DNA of 64,000 nt from Flavobacteriales bacterium. Its GTDB lineage: Bacteria; Bacteroidota; Bacteroidia; Flavobacteriales_F; PHOS-HE28. Positions 14,720 to 53,190 of this stretch are shown here, in pieces. Where the stretch lies: NCBI GenBank assembly GCA_016788295.1, contig JAEUSY010000012.1:1-64000 (forward strand). The letters are read 5' to 3'. The notes beneath the pieces were generated by a model. The model saw only the letters and a list, made by a program, of their open reading frames with translations. It was not told the DNA's origin and searched no databases. The translations under genes and the position numbers were made by a program. How positions within the stretch are numbered: the first letter of the stretch is position 1; each line of letters starts with the position of its first letter.

Positions 14720-14950
14720 ATGGACTATACCAAGCTCATCACCATCGACCCTGCGGTCCGTAGTGGAAAGCCGTGCATTCGCGGCATGCGCATCACCGTA
14801 GGGGATGTACTGGAGTATCTCGCCGGCGGTATGTCGATCCCAGAGATCCTTGAGGACTTCCCCTATCTCACTGAAGAGGACATTCGCGCTTGCCTTGCCT
14901 TCGCCGCCGACAGGGAGCGCAGGCTGCACGTGATACCGCCTGCGGCGTGA
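14720..14950 (+). CDS. DUF433 family antitoxin
   Basis: The 76-residue protein matches the DUF433 (VapB45-like) pattern nearly end to end: ITIDPAVRSGKPCIRGMRIT, VGDVLEYLAGGMSIPEIL, DFPYLTEEDIRACLAFAAD. The fold is a small winged or ribbon-helix DNA-binding unit and the family is usually the antitoxin of a PIN-like toxin. Its stop codon overlaps the GTG start of the downstream DUF5615 gene. As in similar modules it may repress its own promoter. Confidence 0.9.
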   Translation: MDYTKLITIDPAVRSGKPCIRGMRITVGDVLEYLAGGMSIPEILEDFPYLTEEDIRACLAFAADRERRLHVIPPAA

Positions 14951-15282
14951 AGTTCCTGATCGACCACAACCTTTCGCCCAAGCTCGTTCAACACTTGGCT
15001 GAGGGTTTTCCAGGGTCCGCACACACAACGGAACTTGGTTTCGACCGGACCCCTGACCATGACCTGTGGCGATATGCTGCGGAACATGGATTCCATATCC
15101 TCACCAAGGACACCGACTATGAGCAGATCAGCATGCTGAGGGGAGCGCCTCCGAAGGTGGTGTGGCTGCGCATCGGCAATGCACCTACCAGCGCGGTAGT
15201 GGCCTTGCTCAGTAAGTACAGGAGCGAAATAGTCGCCTTCCTTCTGGACGAAGAGCGCTCGCTGCTTGCCCTGAGCAATTGA
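14947..15282 (+). CDS. DUF5615 PIN-like toxin
   Basis: Starting at the GTG that overlaps the antitoxin stop (GTGA), the product is 111 residues: MKFLIDHNLSPKLVQHL, with the first catalytic-type Asp in LIDHN, then DHDLWRYAAEHGFHILTKDTDYEQI, carrying acidic residues at the positions expected for a Mut7-C/PIN-like nuclease, and PPKVVWLRIGN. A longer frame from 14890 overlaps the antitoxin and is unlikely. Probably an RNase whose activity is blocked by the DUF433 partner. All expected acidic residues appear present. Confidence 0.87.
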   Translation: MKFLIDHNLSPKLVQHLAEGFPGSAHTTELGFDRTPDHDLWRYAAEHGFHILTKDTDYEQISMLRGAPPKVVWLRIGNAPTSAVVALLSKYRSEIVAFLLDEERSLLALSN

Positions 15283-47878: not shown

Positions 47879-50059
47879 CTACTCGGCCGCAAAGATCCGC
47901 AGCACCTTCTCGTCCATCCGTTCCACCGAGGTCACCTCACTGAACGCATCGACCTCCTGCTGGCGTTGATCGCCGTTGTACACGTTCGGGTACCGCATCA
48001 ACCGTGCACCGCCGTAGATGGGTTTCTTCCGGTAAGCCGCGAACACCAGTCCATTGTCCGTGAACACATTGTCGATGACATGCGCAATGGAAAGGTCTTT
48101 CGCCACCACGCCATGTGCGTTGCCATCGAACTGCGATGTACGCACCAACAGTTGGCTGGCCTCCCCTACACTGATGGCCTTGTCCATCATGCCTTGGAAA
48201 CGGCAGGCCTCCACCAGCACACGCGCACCGCTCACATCAAGGCCATCACCATTGCTGTCCTTGCGGCCACTTCGGAAGGTGCAGCGCAGCACCCGACCCG
48301 TGCACAGGTCCAGGTCCACGAGATCGGCCATACCGTTCTCGAAGATGCAGTCCTGAAGCAGTACACGACCTCCTTTCACGTTCACCGCATCCTCGCCTGC
48401 GTTCGCACCGATCACGCAATCCACCAGTGCGGTGTAGGCGGCGCCATGCACAGCGAACTGCCCGGAGAAGTAGGCCCCGCAGATGCGCGCCTCACTTCCA
48501 CCATCCAACTGCAGGCCACGGATGCTGCACGAGATCCGTTTGTCGCCCAGCACTGCGAACACACCGAACGGCGCACCGGCCCGCAAGGCGCGCACAAAGA
48601 CCGGGTTCCGCTTGGTGCCACGCACCTGCAGTGACCCTTGGCAGATCACGCTGACGCCCGGTGCCAGCTCGAAACGTGCGCCTTGCAACAGCACCACATG
48701 CTTGCCGAAAGGGAACACCAGGTCCTCGTCCACTTGGTAGCGTCCGCGAGGGAAGATGATGGTATCGCCCAGCACCGATGCCTTGTAGCGTTGCACGATA
48801 CGCTGCACCGATCGGGCATCATCCAACGCGGGCCAGTAACGTTGGACCGCCGTTGTATCCTGCTCGAAAGATGCCCTTCCGGGGCCGTCCACCAGTTGAT
48901 GATCGAGCACCTTCAACGGATCCAACGCCGCCACACCAGAGCCAAGCAGTTCATCGTGCATACGCGCGGTACGCGCACGAGCCATGGCCAGACCTCCGGG
49001 TGGCGCAAGCAAAGGAAGCCACGCACGGTCCATGGTGAGGAATCGTTCGCGGAGGCGCCAACGCTCCTCCAGCAGCTTTTCCCAACGCGCACGCAAGGCC
49101 TCACGCACACGCACATCGGAAAGCAATGCCAGCAGGGGATCCCACGTCAACGGCCCATCGTTCACTCCGACATCGGTGGCGTTCCTTGCGGATCGGTACA
49201 ACGGCACCAGACGCCCCTCGGACCACCGGTAGGCGAACACATCCTCTTCCTGGAACCCATCACGCTCAAGCACGTGCATCAACAAACGGCCGACCGCTGC
49301 ATCGCGGTCAACCACATGGTACAACGCGTTGGTGTGACCAGCGGCCATGTCCGCGCGTGCCAGTCGCAATGTGGATCGAAGCATGGCGGCCGCCGTGGTA
49401 TCGTCATCGAACGCGGGAAACAGATGGTCCGGACGCCGGGCATCGTATCCCTGCTCGAACAATGCACCGTCGGCCATGCGCTGCTTCTCCAACAGATCGG
49501 CATCAATGCGCTCTTCTTTGCGAAAGAGCCCGAGGTCGCGGCCACACGCGATCACACGCACGAATGAGACCTCGGGCGTAACGAGCCCCAGTTCACCGGC
49601 GAGCACTTCGAGGTACTTGGCGCGCATGCTTTCCACCGACGCGGGCATGAGCACGATATGCCGCTGCGCCCGGAACGGTTCTGCCCGTTTGAACTTCACC
49701 ACAAAGCCACCCTCCACCGTTCGAAGGCGGCGCACCTCCACCGAATCGCCATAACCGTCGGCCTCGAACCAGCGGTCCGTCCAACCAGGGCCCGTGTGGT
49801 CCATCAAGCAGGCAGCGTCCTTCTTCGAGCCGCCAAAACGATAGATCTCCGCGCGTGCCTCGCCACGGTCCTCCGGACGCAGATCAAGCAACGCTGCATA
49901 AGCGTCCACTTCGGCGTTGGAGATACTGAACGGCCAACGACCGGCCAACAGCCTATGATCGGCAACGGAGAAGACCAGCACCAACAACGCCAGCGGCACA
50001 AGCATACCGCCGAGCAGTGGCCAAAGACCGATGGCAGTTCGCTTAGCGGGCCTCCTCAT
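47879..50059 (-). CDS. CotH-like domain fused to a right-handed beta-helix
   Basis: Start uncertain: ATG 50059 (726 residues) overlaps the CotH gene by 17 bases, ATG 50071 is also possible. One membrane segment (LLGGMLVPLALLVLVFSVAD) anchors it. Residues 60-400 look like a distant CotH kinase (FVVKFKRAEPFRAQRHIVLM, YLEVLAGELGLVTPEVSFVR, CGRDLGLFRKEERID). Residues 430-726 form a parallel beta-helix: DTIIFPRGRYQVDEDLVFPF, LVDCVIGANAGEDAVNVKGG, LVEACRFQGMMDKAISVGEA, VIDNVFTDNGLVFAAY. It would sit in the periplasm or outside. The fusion with the neighbouring CotH suggests a joint task on a polysaccharide or spore-coat-like protein; this is inference. Confidence 0.72.
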   Translation of the reverse strand: MRRPAKRTAIGLWPLLGGMLVPLALLVLVFSVADHRLLAGRWPFSISNAEVDAYAALLDLRPEDRGEARAEIYRFGGSKKDAACLMDHTGPGWTDRWFEADGYGDSVEVRRLRTVEGGFVVKFKRAEPFRAQRHIVLMPASVESMRAKYLEVLAGELGLVTPEVSFVRVIACGRDLGLFRKEERIDADLLEKQRMADGALFEQGYDARRPDHLFPAFDDDTTAAAMLRSTLRLARADMAAGHTNALYHVVDRDAAVGRLLMHVLERDGFQEEDVFAYRWSEGRLVPLYRSARNATDVGVNDGPLTWDPLLALLSDVRVREALRARWEKLLEERWRLRERFLTMDRAWLPLLAPPGGLAMARARTARMHDELLGSGVAALDPLKVLDHQLVDGPGRASFEQDTTAVQRYWPALDDARSVQRIVQRYKASVLGDTIIFPRGRYQVDEDLVFPFGKHVVLLQGARFELAPGVSVICQGSLQVRGTKRNPVFVRALRAGAPFGVFAVLGDKRISCSIRGLQLDGGSEARICGAYFSGQFAVHGAAYTALVDCVIGANAGEDAVNVKGGRVLLQDCIFENGMADLVDLDLCTGRVLRCTFRSGRKDSNGDGLDVSGARVLVEACRFQGMMDKAISVGEASQLLVRTSQFDGNAHGVVAKDLSIAHVIDNVFTDNGLVFAAYRKKPIYGGARLMRYPNVYNGDQRQQEVDAFSEVTSVERMDEKVLRIFAAE

Positions 50060-51647
50060 CGGTAATGGCATTGGTGATGCGCAATGTGGTCGGCACTCCT
50101 TTCGCAAAGCGGACCCAACTATCGAGCGGAGCCACATCAAAATGGCGTTTGTCCGCGTACGGATGATCCCCGGAGCCTTCCGGCGCTACCAAGGTCCGAT
50201 GCACGACCACTGACCATCCTCCTTCCGAAGCGACCGGAACGACAGGCACACCGTTCACATGAACCAGCTCCGGCACAGCCTCTGTTCCTTTCCACCACAA
50301 GCGCAGTGGCGCTGCGGCAGAAGAGACGAGGTGCAGACTGTCCGCACGGGTGATCTCCACGGCATTCGCCTGCAAACGCTCCTTCGTGATGTTCCACCAA
50401 CGACGCGTGCCATCACGCAGCCCGGCAATGGACGAGATCACATGCACCAGCGAAAAGCGATGCACATCCTCGGCAAAGAGCGTGACGTTACCATACTTGT
50501 TCCTGTCGGCGAGCACCGATGGACGGATGCGTTCCAACACGCGGTCCAGTTCCGCCTCGAAGGCACCTTCCACATGCAGACGCTGCAATGCCTGCCACGC
50601 GTAGCGATCGCGCTGCAGCCGCCATTCGGGCACACGCAACATCCAATAGGCCAGTGCATCGTGCACGTAGTACAATGGTTCACCGTGCTGCGCGAAGAGC
50701 AACAACGCATCCCAGAGCACCGGGTAGAAACGTTGTGTGCGCGGATCGAGCACCAACCACTGGTTGTGATACTGATCGATATGTTGTGTGTTCAACAATA
50801 GAATGGAGGCCTGGTAACGCAGGAAGGCGTCCACGTCCACCAACCGCGCAATGGAGTCGCGTCGCGCGGTCAATGGTCGGTCGTCGGGACGAAGCGCTTC
50901 CACCAGTGCCTTCAAGCGGGCATGGGCCAACGTACTGTCAGCGTCGGATGCATACTCCCAATGTGCAGTGTTCGTCCAAAGGCTGCGTCCCTTGGTGAGC
51001 GCGCGACCCGTGATGGGGGGATAATCACCCTTGTAAACCGGCACTTCATGATCCACCAGGTGACGGTGGCGCTCGAAGTCGCCGTCCACTTGCTCGAAAA
51101 GTTCCATCACCCCTTGATCGCGACCGTTGATGCGGACGAACACCAGCTCGTTCCACGGTACGGCAACTCCCATGGTGCCACCAACGAAGGCCGCCATGTG
51201 ATCGTTCACCATGTTGAAGGCCTTCGGGTTGATCACGTTCACCTTTCGATAAGGCGCGAATGGTCCGCTGCGTTTCAACGAAAGCCGGAACGACCGCTTA
51301 CCACCGAGAAAGTGTGAAGTGGCATACACGCCCCGATACCGGAAGCGCACCTTGTGATCGGCACCGTTGTGATGCAGTATCGCTGGCACATTGCGCCCAC
51401 CGCTCCATGGCAGATCAGCGGAAAGGCTGTCCAACCTCGCCTGATCAACGGTAAGATCCAGTACCGGTATGCGATGCTTCGGCGTTACTTCTGCAAGCCC
51501 ATCCACTGCCGTGGAAAGGAAGGCCGCTGCAGCGATATGCACAGCACGCATGGGACCCAACACAGCAGCGAACACGATCAGCGACACGGCGACCGCACCG
51601 GCCAGCACGGCCCACACGACAACCTGTCCTTTTCGTTTCACGCTCAT
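50043..51647 (-). CDS. CotH kinase family protein
   Basis: ATG 51647 gives 534 residues and overlaps the upstream gene's stop (ATGA). One membrane helix (VVVWAVLAGAVAVSLIVFAA) anchors the protein. Residues 60-480 match CotH: ILHHNGADHKVRFRYRGVY, KRSFRLSLKRSGPF, VFVRINGRDQGVMELFEQVD, and a core with LLNTQHIDQYHNQWLVLD and FYPVLWDALLLF. CotH proteins are atypical protein kinases that phosphorylate secreted proteins in spore formers; the role in Bacteroidota is unclear. In other genomes CotH sits with VTC and DUF4956 genes; the small membrane protein upstream may be the DUF4956-like partner, while no VTC gene is present. Confidence 0.88.
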   Translation of the reverse strand: MSVKRKGQVVVWAVLAGAVAVSLIVFAAVLGPMRAVHIAAAAFLSTAVDGLAEVTPKHRIPVLDLTVDQARLDSLSADLPWSGGRNVPAILHHNGADHKVRFRYRGVYATSHFLGGKRSFRLSLKRSGPFAPYRKVNVINPKAFNMVNDHMAAFVGGTMGVAVPWNELVFVRINGRDQGVMELFEQVDGDFERHRHLVDHEVPVYKGDYPPITGRALTKGRSLWTNTAHWEYASDADSTLAHARLKALVEALRPDDRPLTARRDSIARLVDVDAFLRYQASILLLNTQHIDQYHNQWLVLDPRTQRFYPVLWDALLLFAQHGEPLYYVHDALAYWMLRVPEWRLQRDRYAWQALQRLHVEGAFEAELDRVLERIRPSVLADRNKYGNVTLFAEDVHRFSLVHVISSIAGLRDGTRRWWNITKERLQANAVEITRADSLHLVSSAAAPLRLWWKGTEAVPELVHVNGVPVVPVASEGGWSVVVHRTLVAPEGSGDHPYADKRHFDVAPLDSWVRFAKGVPTTLRITNAITDEEAR

Positions 51648-52048
51648 CGTGATCGGGTGCTGAACAAGAGGACCAACACCAGGATGGCGGAGAGCACCAA
51701 AGCGCTCATCACCAGCCCAAGACCCAACAAGGCGGCAATGAGAAGCACAGGGATGATGAGCCCACGCGGTTCGATGGCACGACCCAGCAACCCGCCTATG
51801 ACCAGGCCGCCGGAAATGATGAACGATGCTGCCAACCCCTGATCGAAATGCCGCAAAAGGAGCACGAGACCGAAGGAGGATACCAACAACGACCACGATA
51901 CCAACGGACCGCGATCTGCCGGACGGAATCCCCGGTTCCAGGCCCAGCCCACCAGGGCCAGCACCACCACCAGCAGCAGGAACAGTGTGAGCACTTCCAC
52001 CCAACCGTGGAGCAATGCCCCTACCCATCTATCGGCCTCGGTCCGCAT
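51644..52048 (-). CDS. Small multi-pass membrane protein (DUF4956-like?)
   Basis: The 134-residue protein has three or four hydrophobic helices (VLTLFLLLVVVLALVGWAW, LVSWSLLVSSFGLVLLL, FIISGGLVIGGLLG, LIIPVLLIAALLGLGLVMSA). The order and the Gly-rich ends resemble DUF4956 proteins that accompany CotH and VTC, but a match cannot be claimed by eye. It overlaps the CotH start by four bases. Confidence 0.7.
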   Translation of the reverse strand: MRTEADRWVGALLHGWVEVLTLFLLLVVVLALVGWAWNRGFRPADRGPLVSWSLLVSSFGLVLLLRHFDQGLAASFIISGGLVIGGLLGRAIEPRGLIIPVLLIAALLGLGLVMSALVLSAILVLVLLFSTRSR

Positions 52049-52091: not shown

Positions 52092-52613
52092 ATGAACATG
52101 GACCGCCGGGGAGTTTTCAAGATCGCATTGGTGTTCGTGGCTGCATTAGTGGCCTGGGCGCTGCTGCGGCGGCAACACGCACCATACTTACAACGCGTTA
52201 CGGATGAACAGGTGCCAGCGCAGAGCAAGGCCGTGAACACCGCAACCTATGAAGGTGACAGAACATTCCTGTGGACGGACAGGGATTACCATACCACGAC
52301 ACGTGTAGGCCGATTGAGCGGCAAGGTGTTCACCCGCATTGGGCGGCGCGAACATGCGCCTTACTATCTGCGGGTGTTACGAAGTACAAGGCTGTATACG
52401 CTGGCCAATGGTGACCGGCTGGAAGGACTCAAGGAATGGACCGTGCTGGAGGACAGCGTGCTGGTGCTTGATGCCTACGCGCCGCGGACCTTCGATCGTG
52501 TGTTGATGTTGGTGGTTGAGGTCGGCACATACCGCATGGCCAACCCCACGAAAGGGCCAAGCCATCCCCTCTTCTTCGACCCTGCGGACGTGCAGGTAAT
52601 TGGCACGCCCTAA
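52092..52613 (+). CDS. Hypothetical membrane-anchored protein
   Basis: The 173-residue product starts MNMDRRGVFKIALVFVAALVAWALL, a single N-terminal membrane helix, followed by a beta-rich domain (TYEGDRTFLWTDRDYHTTTR, RLSGKVFTRIGRREHAPYYL) facing the periplasm. No family recognised. Its stop codon shares two bases with the stop of the convergent gene. Confidence 0.68.
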   Translation: MNMDRRGVFKIALVFVAALVAWALLRRQHAPYLQRVTDEQVPAQSKAVNTATYEGDRTFLWTDRDYHTTTRVGRLSGKVFTRIGRREHAPYYLRVLRSTRLYTLANGDRLEGLKEWTVLEDSVLVLDAYAPRTFDRVLMLVVEVGTYRMANPTKGPSHPLFFDPADVQVIGTP

Positions 52614-53071
52614 AGGAAGCGTTCCATCCAACTGGCGCGCAGGGGCACCCGGAAACGCTCGCGCAGCTCGCCTACGGTGGAGACCAGATCGTCGAATACG
52701 ATGGTGTCACCCGTGATCACGCCGCTCTTCACCAGTTCAGGCAGCTCCTGCAACCGGCAACTGCGCACCTGGCCATCCTGTTCGAACACCACCACCATAC
52801 GGTCGGTGAGCATCAGTTTCAGGTCATGCTCCAAGCGCTTCACGAAGGCCACGCTCTTGTCGATACTGCAGCCGCTGGCCAGCGCCTGCTCCTCGTCAAC
52901 AGCGATCACCACGAAGCGGTCGTGCAGCACGTCAACACAGGCATCCAAGGGCGTACCGTGAGCGGCCCAACCCTCGGTGAACTCAGCACCCCGTTCGCGC
53001 ACCAAGCGCTGTTCCGCCTGCCCCAACGCACGTGGCGACTTGTAGATCCATGTGCGGGCATGAGCGGGCAT
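52610..53071 (-). CDS. Conserved Bacteroidota hypothetical protein (sometimes called ABC transporter ATPase)
   Basis: ATG 53071 gives 153 residues. The family is distinctive: RTWIYKSPRALGQAEQ, FVVIAVDEEQALASGCSIDK, VVVFEQDGQVRSCRLQELPE, SGVITGDTIVFDDLVSTVGE and ASWMERFL. The name ABC transporter ATPase in databases is not supported by any Walker motif here. Function unknown; cytoplasmic. As I remember, relatives often lie near Fe-S oxidoreductase genes, and this one is 4 kb from such a pair. The stop overlaps the convergent stop (CTAA). Confidence 0.78.
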   Translation of the reverse strand: MPAHARTWIYKSPRALGQAEQRLVRERGAEFTEGWAAHGTPLDACVDVLHDRFVVIAVDEEQALASGCSIDKSVAFVKRLEHDLKLMLTDRMVVVFEQDGQVRSCRLQELPELVKSGVITGDTIVFDDLVSTVGELRERFRVPLRASWMERFL

Positions 53072-53190
53072 GGTGCCGAGGGTGCGATTGGCGTGCTGCG
53101 TCTGCATGGTACAAAGTTGGTGATCCTATGCATATGACCGAACGTTCCATCACGCCACGAAAACCGGCGGCGATCCGTTTACTTCGCCGC

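Follow-up and report, generated by a model that had tools for sequence, protein, structure and literature searches.

A predicted kinase/pseudokinase variant of the CotH/DUF4956 gene sets, encoded by three coupled genes in a Flavobacteriales bacterium

Genes encoding CotH kinases, DUF4956 membrane proteins and VTC proteins co-occur in different bacteria. In Gram-positive Pel loci, the accessory genes include CotH, a polyphosphate polymerase and DUF4956 (PMC7112168), and in a Clostridium perfringens locus the VTC-domain and CotH genes lie close together (PMC2879425). The Pel accessory genes of Streptococcus intermedius, SIR_1592-1594, have been studied by deletion. Loss of the CotH gene lowers Pel, loss of the neighboring MgtC/ACT membrane gene raises it, and in one medium either deletion reduces aggregation by over 50%; no other accessory genes are named in the abstract as reducing aggregation (PMC12345266). 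SIR_1592 has four transmembrane segments in residues 22-143 (PMC12345266). As far as the accessible parts of these papers go, the mechanism behind the co-occurrence is left to be determined. Here, we describe an operon of three genes, designated A, B and C, in a Flavobacteriales bacterium (assembly GCA_016788295.1, contig JAEUSY010000012.1, positions 1 to 64,000). The whole 64,000-nucleotide stretch is referred to as the window, and the three genes lie on its minus strand. The operon is predicted to be a variant of the CotH/DUF4956 kind in which CotH is split into a kinase and a pseudokinase.

As read from the open reading frames (ORFs) and their translations, gene A (51644-52048) encodes a predicted multi-pass membrane protein of 134 amino acids (aa), gene B (50043-51647) a predicted active kinase of 534 aa, and gene C (47879-50059) a protein of 726 aa. 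The model of B shows N-terminal hydrophobic helices, the CotH kinase domain and a C-terminal beta-sandwich; C consists of a membrane anchor, a CotH-like predicted pseudokinase domain and a right-handed beta-helix. The stop codon of A overlaps with the start codon of B in the 4 bases ATGA (51644-51647), and B and C overlap by 17 bases (50043-50059). An earlier interpretation of the window from its letters (the sequence-only reading) had described three genes coupled in this way, and the relatives agree with it: the A/B overlap is exactly 4 bases in all 20 genomes with a readable junction and the B/C overlap is 4-26 bases, mostly 17, in 21 out of 21 (window included in both counts), a uniformity that is possibly slightly flattered by the use of a simple ORF caller with starts fitted to homologs. 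As the overlaps are conserved across genomes, they are not due to chance. Gene order and overlaps are shared by C members that are as low as 23% identical.

B is predicted, on the basis of its sequence and its structural model, to be an active CotH kinase. It matches the Pfam CotH family (PF08757) with 61.9 bits, the cut-off being 23.8, and matches Bacillus cereus CotH with an E of 5.1e-8 by phmmer. The model is of moderate confidence, with a mean predicted local distance difference test (pLDDT) score of 71.8, and it aligns with structure 5jda with a Z of 27.1 over 329 residues at 20% identity, which identifies the CotH fold; model and alignment place this fold at residues 58-427 (50367-51476). 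In the alignment with 5jd9, D291 (50775-50777) and D313 (50709-50711) correspond to D228 and D251 of B. subtilis CotH, an enzyme that is inactivated by a change of either residue (PMC7821199). Judging from the 23-residue spacing on the 5jd9 alignment, the WD motif would begin its Asp residues with D251. Both Asp residues are invariant in the 16 aligned B proteins, and likewise K117 and E185; this alignment omits a near copy (G002), the degenerate copies of B in three genomes and one partial copy. The presence of a CotH gene in the operon, as proposed in the sequence-only reading, is therefore supported by family score, fold and both Asp residues.

The CotH fold is found a second time in C, where the domain is predicted, again from sequence and model, to be a pseudokinase. 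A predicted membrane helix preceded by basic residues (residues 11-32, or 12-32 in the model; 49964-50029) is followed by the CotH-like domain at residues 69-386 (48902-49855), assigned by its fold match. C scores 15.8 bits against Pfam CotH, below the cut-off of 23.8; this family is detected at E<=1 in 15 of the 29 aligned C proteins (best 1.7e-5), and a sequence search of the PDB with C returns nothing at E<=1. Profile-profile comparison of C with B gives an E of 6.7e-10 over 268 columns, and residues 69-386 of the C model (mean pLDDT 86.4) match B. cereus CotH 5jd9 with a Z of 23.1 (VIA-align; 307 residues, root-mean-square deviation 3.2, 11% identity). An N-terminus unrelated to CotH is ruled out by these two results. 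The CotH-type N-terminus of the beta-helix fusion, a claim for which a profile comparison had been chosen beforehand as the test, is thereby upheld.

At the D251-type position of C (P286+4), neither Asp nor Glu is present in any of the 29 aligned proteins, which represent 29 of the 34 rows available. The adjoining positions hold a Glu in one member (on the N-terminal side) and an Asp in two (on the C-terminal side); the D228 stretch is not placeable. Since the D251-type Asp is lacking throughout, C is probably not a second kinase, and the candidate of a second active CotH kinase was discarded on this ground. The earlier claim of two CotH-type domains in one operon holds for the fold, which is present in both B and C, and probably not for a kinase function of both.

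The right-handed beta-helix of C comprises residues 418-713 (47921-48808). It matches Pfam Beta_helix with 34.9 bits, over the cut-off, and this family is detected at E<=1 in 29 of 29 members. The nearest structure is AlgG (4ozz/4nk6), and other close folds are those of alginate lyases and AlgE-type epimerases. In the 29-row alignment, the polar residues that are invariant in this region (D432, R438, R462, and R490) lie near its start and the near-invariant Asn residues (N669, N692, and N697) near its end; the middle coils are free of invariant charges. Because of this placement of conserved residues, the beta-helix is read as a binding rather than a catalytic element.

A is probably a shortened DUF4956/MgtC-type membrane protein without the C-terminal soluble domain. 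Thirty homologs occur in the fetched relatives, and the alignment contains 24 out of 31 rows. A has no match in Pfam or NCBIfam, and Pfam DUF4956 (PF16316) is listed for none of 24 A members at E<=10. When 412 neighborhood proteins are searched with an A profile by hmmsearch, five of the 11 full DUF4956 proteins are among the top six, with collinear matches and E values of 0.001-0.74; the remaining six do not reach a rank above the tenth. Nothing follows the membrane part in A. The same holds for the 132-aa product of the gene that takes this position in a paralogous locus of the host genome, L009; by hhalign, it shows homology to DUF4956 in the membrane half of the latter (E 7.7e-9). Homology of A itself to DUF4956 is likely, judging from these sequence comparisons. 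The suggestion in the sequence-only reading that a small membrane protein takes the place of DUF4956 is fitting, and A's own matches argue weakly for homology.

Fusions of a CotH-like domain to a beta-helix are not peculiar to the A-B-C operon. When 395 genomes of the class, taken to be Bacteroidia, are searched with the C profile, 55 of them have matches at E<=1e-10, belonging to 23 of 196 genera (this genus included), several matches being helix-only; the fusion recurs in other genera. Thirty-two neighborhoods of such matches were read, seven in the genus (L009 and L145-L150) and 25 outside, some of them cut by contig ends (e.g., L133 and L134), with neighbor families assigned by local profiles and partly confirmed by Pfam. 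A full DUF4956 gene lies at most six called genes away in 10 of the 32, a short one occupies that position in five more, and a VTC gene lies at most five called genes away in 11. DUF4956 and VTC occur together with a separate CotH gene in L140, L141, L143, and L154, and together with a CotH/beta-helix fusion in L127, L132, L135, and L136. The parallel with VTC/DUF4956 sets that had been drawn for the operon is therefore confirmed by relatives of C in other genera.

In 12 of the 32 neighborhoods, a Wzy polymerase gene is located between a separate CotH gene and the fusion. L140 contains DUF4956, VTC, CotH, Wzy and fusion genes and is flanked by glycosyltransferases and hexapeptide transferases; in the 11 genes scanned with Pfam, out of 16 called, no Pel-specific family is seen, no targeted pel search having been made. 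The three-gene arrangement was reportedly not found outside Pel loci (PMC12345266); contrary to this, L140 is such an arrangement, and the seven other neighborhoods with DUF4956, VTC and either a separate CotH or a fusion likewise contrast with that report. L009 (contig C5 of the host genome, 5063-10971) contains a short DUF4956-type gene, an intact CotH, a Wzy_C polymerase and a CotH/beta-helix fusion, and lies in a polysaccharide cluster, flanked by a glycosyltransferase, an NAD-dependent epimerase and an asparagine synthase.

The separate CotH proteins of the Wzy clusters have both catalytic Asp residues in 11 of 11 aligned cases (12 clusters; the CotH of L148 was not aligned). In all 12 fusions of these clusters, Glu occupies the D251 position, and an Asp is retained close to the D228 position. 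The Wzy clusters thus show the same intact/impaired split, so that there are two settings in which a kinase that looks intact is paired with an impaired one fused to a helix. Among 15 other fusions, the D251-type Asp is retained in 12, and at the D228 position no Asp is seen in any of these (Glu in one, a gap in another); the fusions of L125, L138, and L153 are too divergent for placing catalytic residues, that of L138 being without a Pfam CotH match. Both Asp residues together occur in none of the 27 proteins with a helix and a long N-terminal part. For this reason, the idea that fusions keep catalysis where no partner kinase is encoded was rejected. A derivation of B from a CotH/beta-helix fusion was also considered and dropped, as the CotH tree does not resolve it (split at 79, long branches).

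Some neighborhoods contain further variants. L144 (8725-12315) encodes a protein with the reverse order, i.e., beta-helix and then CotH, ending in a type IX secretion tail, and proteins of similar size occur in L152 and L155. Calcineurin-like phosphoesterase genes are located near fusions in L132 (2590-4860), L136 (8532-9404), and L009 (11166-12008), the last one just under the Pfam cut-off; a phosphatase partner is possible.

The family-, order- and genus-level searches for the operon all covered the same 45 genomes. C has a match in 39 of the 45 genus genomes at E<=0.001, some being helix-only or a paralog, and the C profile has one in 35 at E<=1e-20. Relatives of B are found in 16 named public loci (11 Flavobacteriales, four Bacteroidota/Bacteroidetes, and one Chryseobacterium gleum), all from metagenome-assembled genomes, several of which coincide with genomes already searched and are not independent. 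In a tree of A plus C with 32 rows, from which G004b and G036 are omitted (partial C), 18 rows have a full B, three a degenerate B and 11 no B. The 11 rows without B form one side of a branch with a Shimodaira-Hasegawa-like approximate likelihood ratio test (SH-aLRT) support of 99. The presence of B requires two changes on this tree, one of them forced by starred branches; gain and loss were tried as directions, and the tree cannot tell between them. In G013, G023, and G037 (loci L051, L052, and L059), B is cut to 386-403 aa with loss of the catalytic Asp, and the overlaps with A and C are kept.

The host assembly comprises 3.78 Mb in 61 contigs and has nine CotH matches, counted as eight genes. 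VTC is absent from the A-B-C operon, as the sequence-only reading had it: the only VTC match of the genome is on contig C57, where it adjoins the only DUF4956 match (C57:127861-129149). The gene upstream of the operon (52610-53107) has no Pfam family. Elsewhere in the window, on the plus strand (14720-15282), DUF433 and DUF5615 genes are adjacent with a 4-base overlap, an arrangement that we take to be toxin-antitoxin-like.

We tentatively prefer, at somewhat less than an even chance, the reading that A, B and C form one translationally coupled, periplasm-facing kinase/pseudokinase module that tunes surface polysaccharide or matrix. B would be an inner-membrane-anchored CotH-type kinase with its catalytic domain toward the periplasm, an orientation of B and C to which the basic residues before the first hydrophobic stretch point. 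C would be its membrane-anchored pseudokinase partner, the non-catalytic CotH-like domain binding B and positioning or activating it, and the beta-helix docking to polysaccharide or another surface polymer. Their partner in the membrane would be A, a small multi-pass protein of the DUF4956/MgtC type. By phosphorylating a synthesis or export component or a matrix protein, the module would adjust the production or assembly of surface polysaccharide or matrix. In its favor are the conserved overlaps, the retention of both Asp residues in B, the lack of the D251-type Asp in C in spite of the CotH fold, the recurrence of this split in Wzy-type clusters, and a beta-helix whose nearest folds act on polysaccharides. 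A surface-polysaccharide role is suggested by the relatives and, by analogy, by one genetic study in another phylum. The location of related gene sets in surface-polysaccharide clusters suggests a control of the bacterial coat to which extracytoplasmic phosphorylation contributes. The phosphorylation of coat proteins that had been brought up for CotH receives no direct support here; the relatives' surroundings point to surface polysaccharide.

If this reading is true, the operon shows that the parts of the known sets are separable, with VTC and the soluble domain of DUF4956 being dispensable. The sets also gain a new component, the pseudokinase/beta-helix, which is found again in other genera, and their range extends from Pel loci to Wzy-type polysaccharide clusters. 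Moreover, a Gram-negative bacterium would have a concrete, testable kinase/pseudokinase pair acting extracytoplasmically, in a place for which the supply of ATP has itself to be explained. A more specific proposal, which we regard as unlikely, is that of a bacterial counterpart of Fam20C/Fam20A: the CotH pseudokinase with its beta-helix would activate the CotH kinase and direct it to a surface polymer, and DUF4956-type proteins, shrunk to A in this operon, would pass or gate a phosphoryl donor across the inner membrane. In that case, CotH domains fused to a beta-helix would make up a general class of pseudokinases that Bacteroidia use outside the cytoplasm.

A number of observations weigh against the module. 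A and C are present without B in 11 genomes, in none of which the B profile finds a B at E<=1e-5 (other CotH genes in these genomes were not examined), and B is degenerate in G013, G023, and G037. As A and C persist without B, C must do something in its absence. In the C proteins, residues 300-390 are on average better conserved without B (0.568) than with B (0.288), and so is the membrane helix (0.685 compared to 0.378), although the group without B is closer related overall (helix 0.572 vs 0.441) and the pairs are not independent; the result for residues 300-390 slightly lowers our confidence in the module. In favor of the module, residues 65-300 at matched helix divergence have a lower identity and more gaps in the absence of B (31 pairs; 0.427 at helix 0.582, gaps of 0.071) than in its presence (35 pairs; 0.458 at helix 0.500, gaps of 0.024). 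This comparison omits G004, G004b, G036, G039 and the three genomes with a degenerate B, and the evidence for a relaxation of C where B is absent is mixed. Additionally, A compared with DUF4956 by hhalign is not significant (E 0.2 and 0.6), and no polysaccharide cluster is seen around the operon, with no glycosyltransferase among the seven neighboring genes scanned. The contact between B and C is one that we infer, and the supply of ATP in the periplasm is a general difficulty.

The genomes without B bear on the possibility that B and C are independent, C being a surface- or polysaccharide-binding beta-helix with a structural CotH-like domain, B phosphorylating other envelope proteins, and the coupling setting expression only. 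The A-C pairs on one side of the SH-aLRT 99 branch, the lack of a profile-detected B elsewhere in those 11 genomes, and a beta-helix whose conservation exceeds that of residues 65-300 with or without B, with residues 300-390 well conserved without B, are all in favor of this. It is nevertheless judged somewhat unlikely, as the B/C overlap is kept in 21 of 21 genomes and the pairing of CotH with a fusion recurs in 12 Wzy-type loci. Those same loci are compatible with B being a glycan kinase for surface-polysaccharide sugars, to which the beta-helix of C, resembling polysaccharide-acting folds, presents the chain; within the Fam20 family, Fam20B phosphorylates a xylose (PMC5865150). This is distinctly unlikely, given that Bacillus CotH substrates are proteins (PMC7821199), that sugar specificity is not readable from sequence and that no polysaccharide cluster is seen around the operon, with seven neighbors scanned. 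The nearest folds, i.e., AlgG, AlgE-type epimerases and alginate lyases, also raise the question whether C is itself an epimerase or lyase acting through its beta-helix. With invariant polar residues at the helix start, near-invariant Asn at its end and no invariant charge mid-coil, we consider this very unlikely, the catalytic residues of AlgG not having been mapped. Finally, nine CotH matches (eight genes) in the host genome could simply stem from a local expansion of CotH surface proteins of the ordinary sort, with no particular system involved, which is scarcely credible in view of the order and overlaps fixed across C members down to 23% identity and the repeated linkage with DUF4956/VTC or Wzy.

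Among the matches listed in the open-licence literature, titles and abstract openings describe neither a CotH pseudokinase nor a CotH/beta-helix fusion. The preferred module can be compared with partly similar systems. Bacillus CotH, the spore-coat kinase (5jd9/5jda), has the fold and both catalytic Asp residues in common with B; unlike it, B is anchored in the membrane and carries a beta-sandwich at its C-terminus, and C is without the catalytic residues. The periplasmic alginate epimerase AlgG (4ozz and 4nk6) shares its right-handed beta-helix with C (Z 26.5 over 265 residues), but at 9% identity and without a catalytic cluster being apparent among the invariant residues of C. The Pel accessory genes likewise combine a secreted CotH with a small multi-pass membrane protein, and loss of either alters polysaccharide output there (PMC12345266). 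In contrast to those genes, the A-B-C operon lacks VTC, the soluble domain at the C-terminus is missing from A, a beta-helix is fused to a second, pseudokinase-like CotH, and no pel genes are seen beside the operon. Fam20C and Fam20A are an extracytoplasmic atypical kinase and a related pseudokinase (PMC4421793), as B and C are predicted to be. The differences are that the pseudokinase C carries a beta-helix, that the fold similarity is only distant (B compared to Golgi casein kinase 4kqa, Z 7.2), and that a complex of B and C is hypothetical. With these differences taken into account, Fam20A/Fam20C may serve as the nearest working analogy for B and C.

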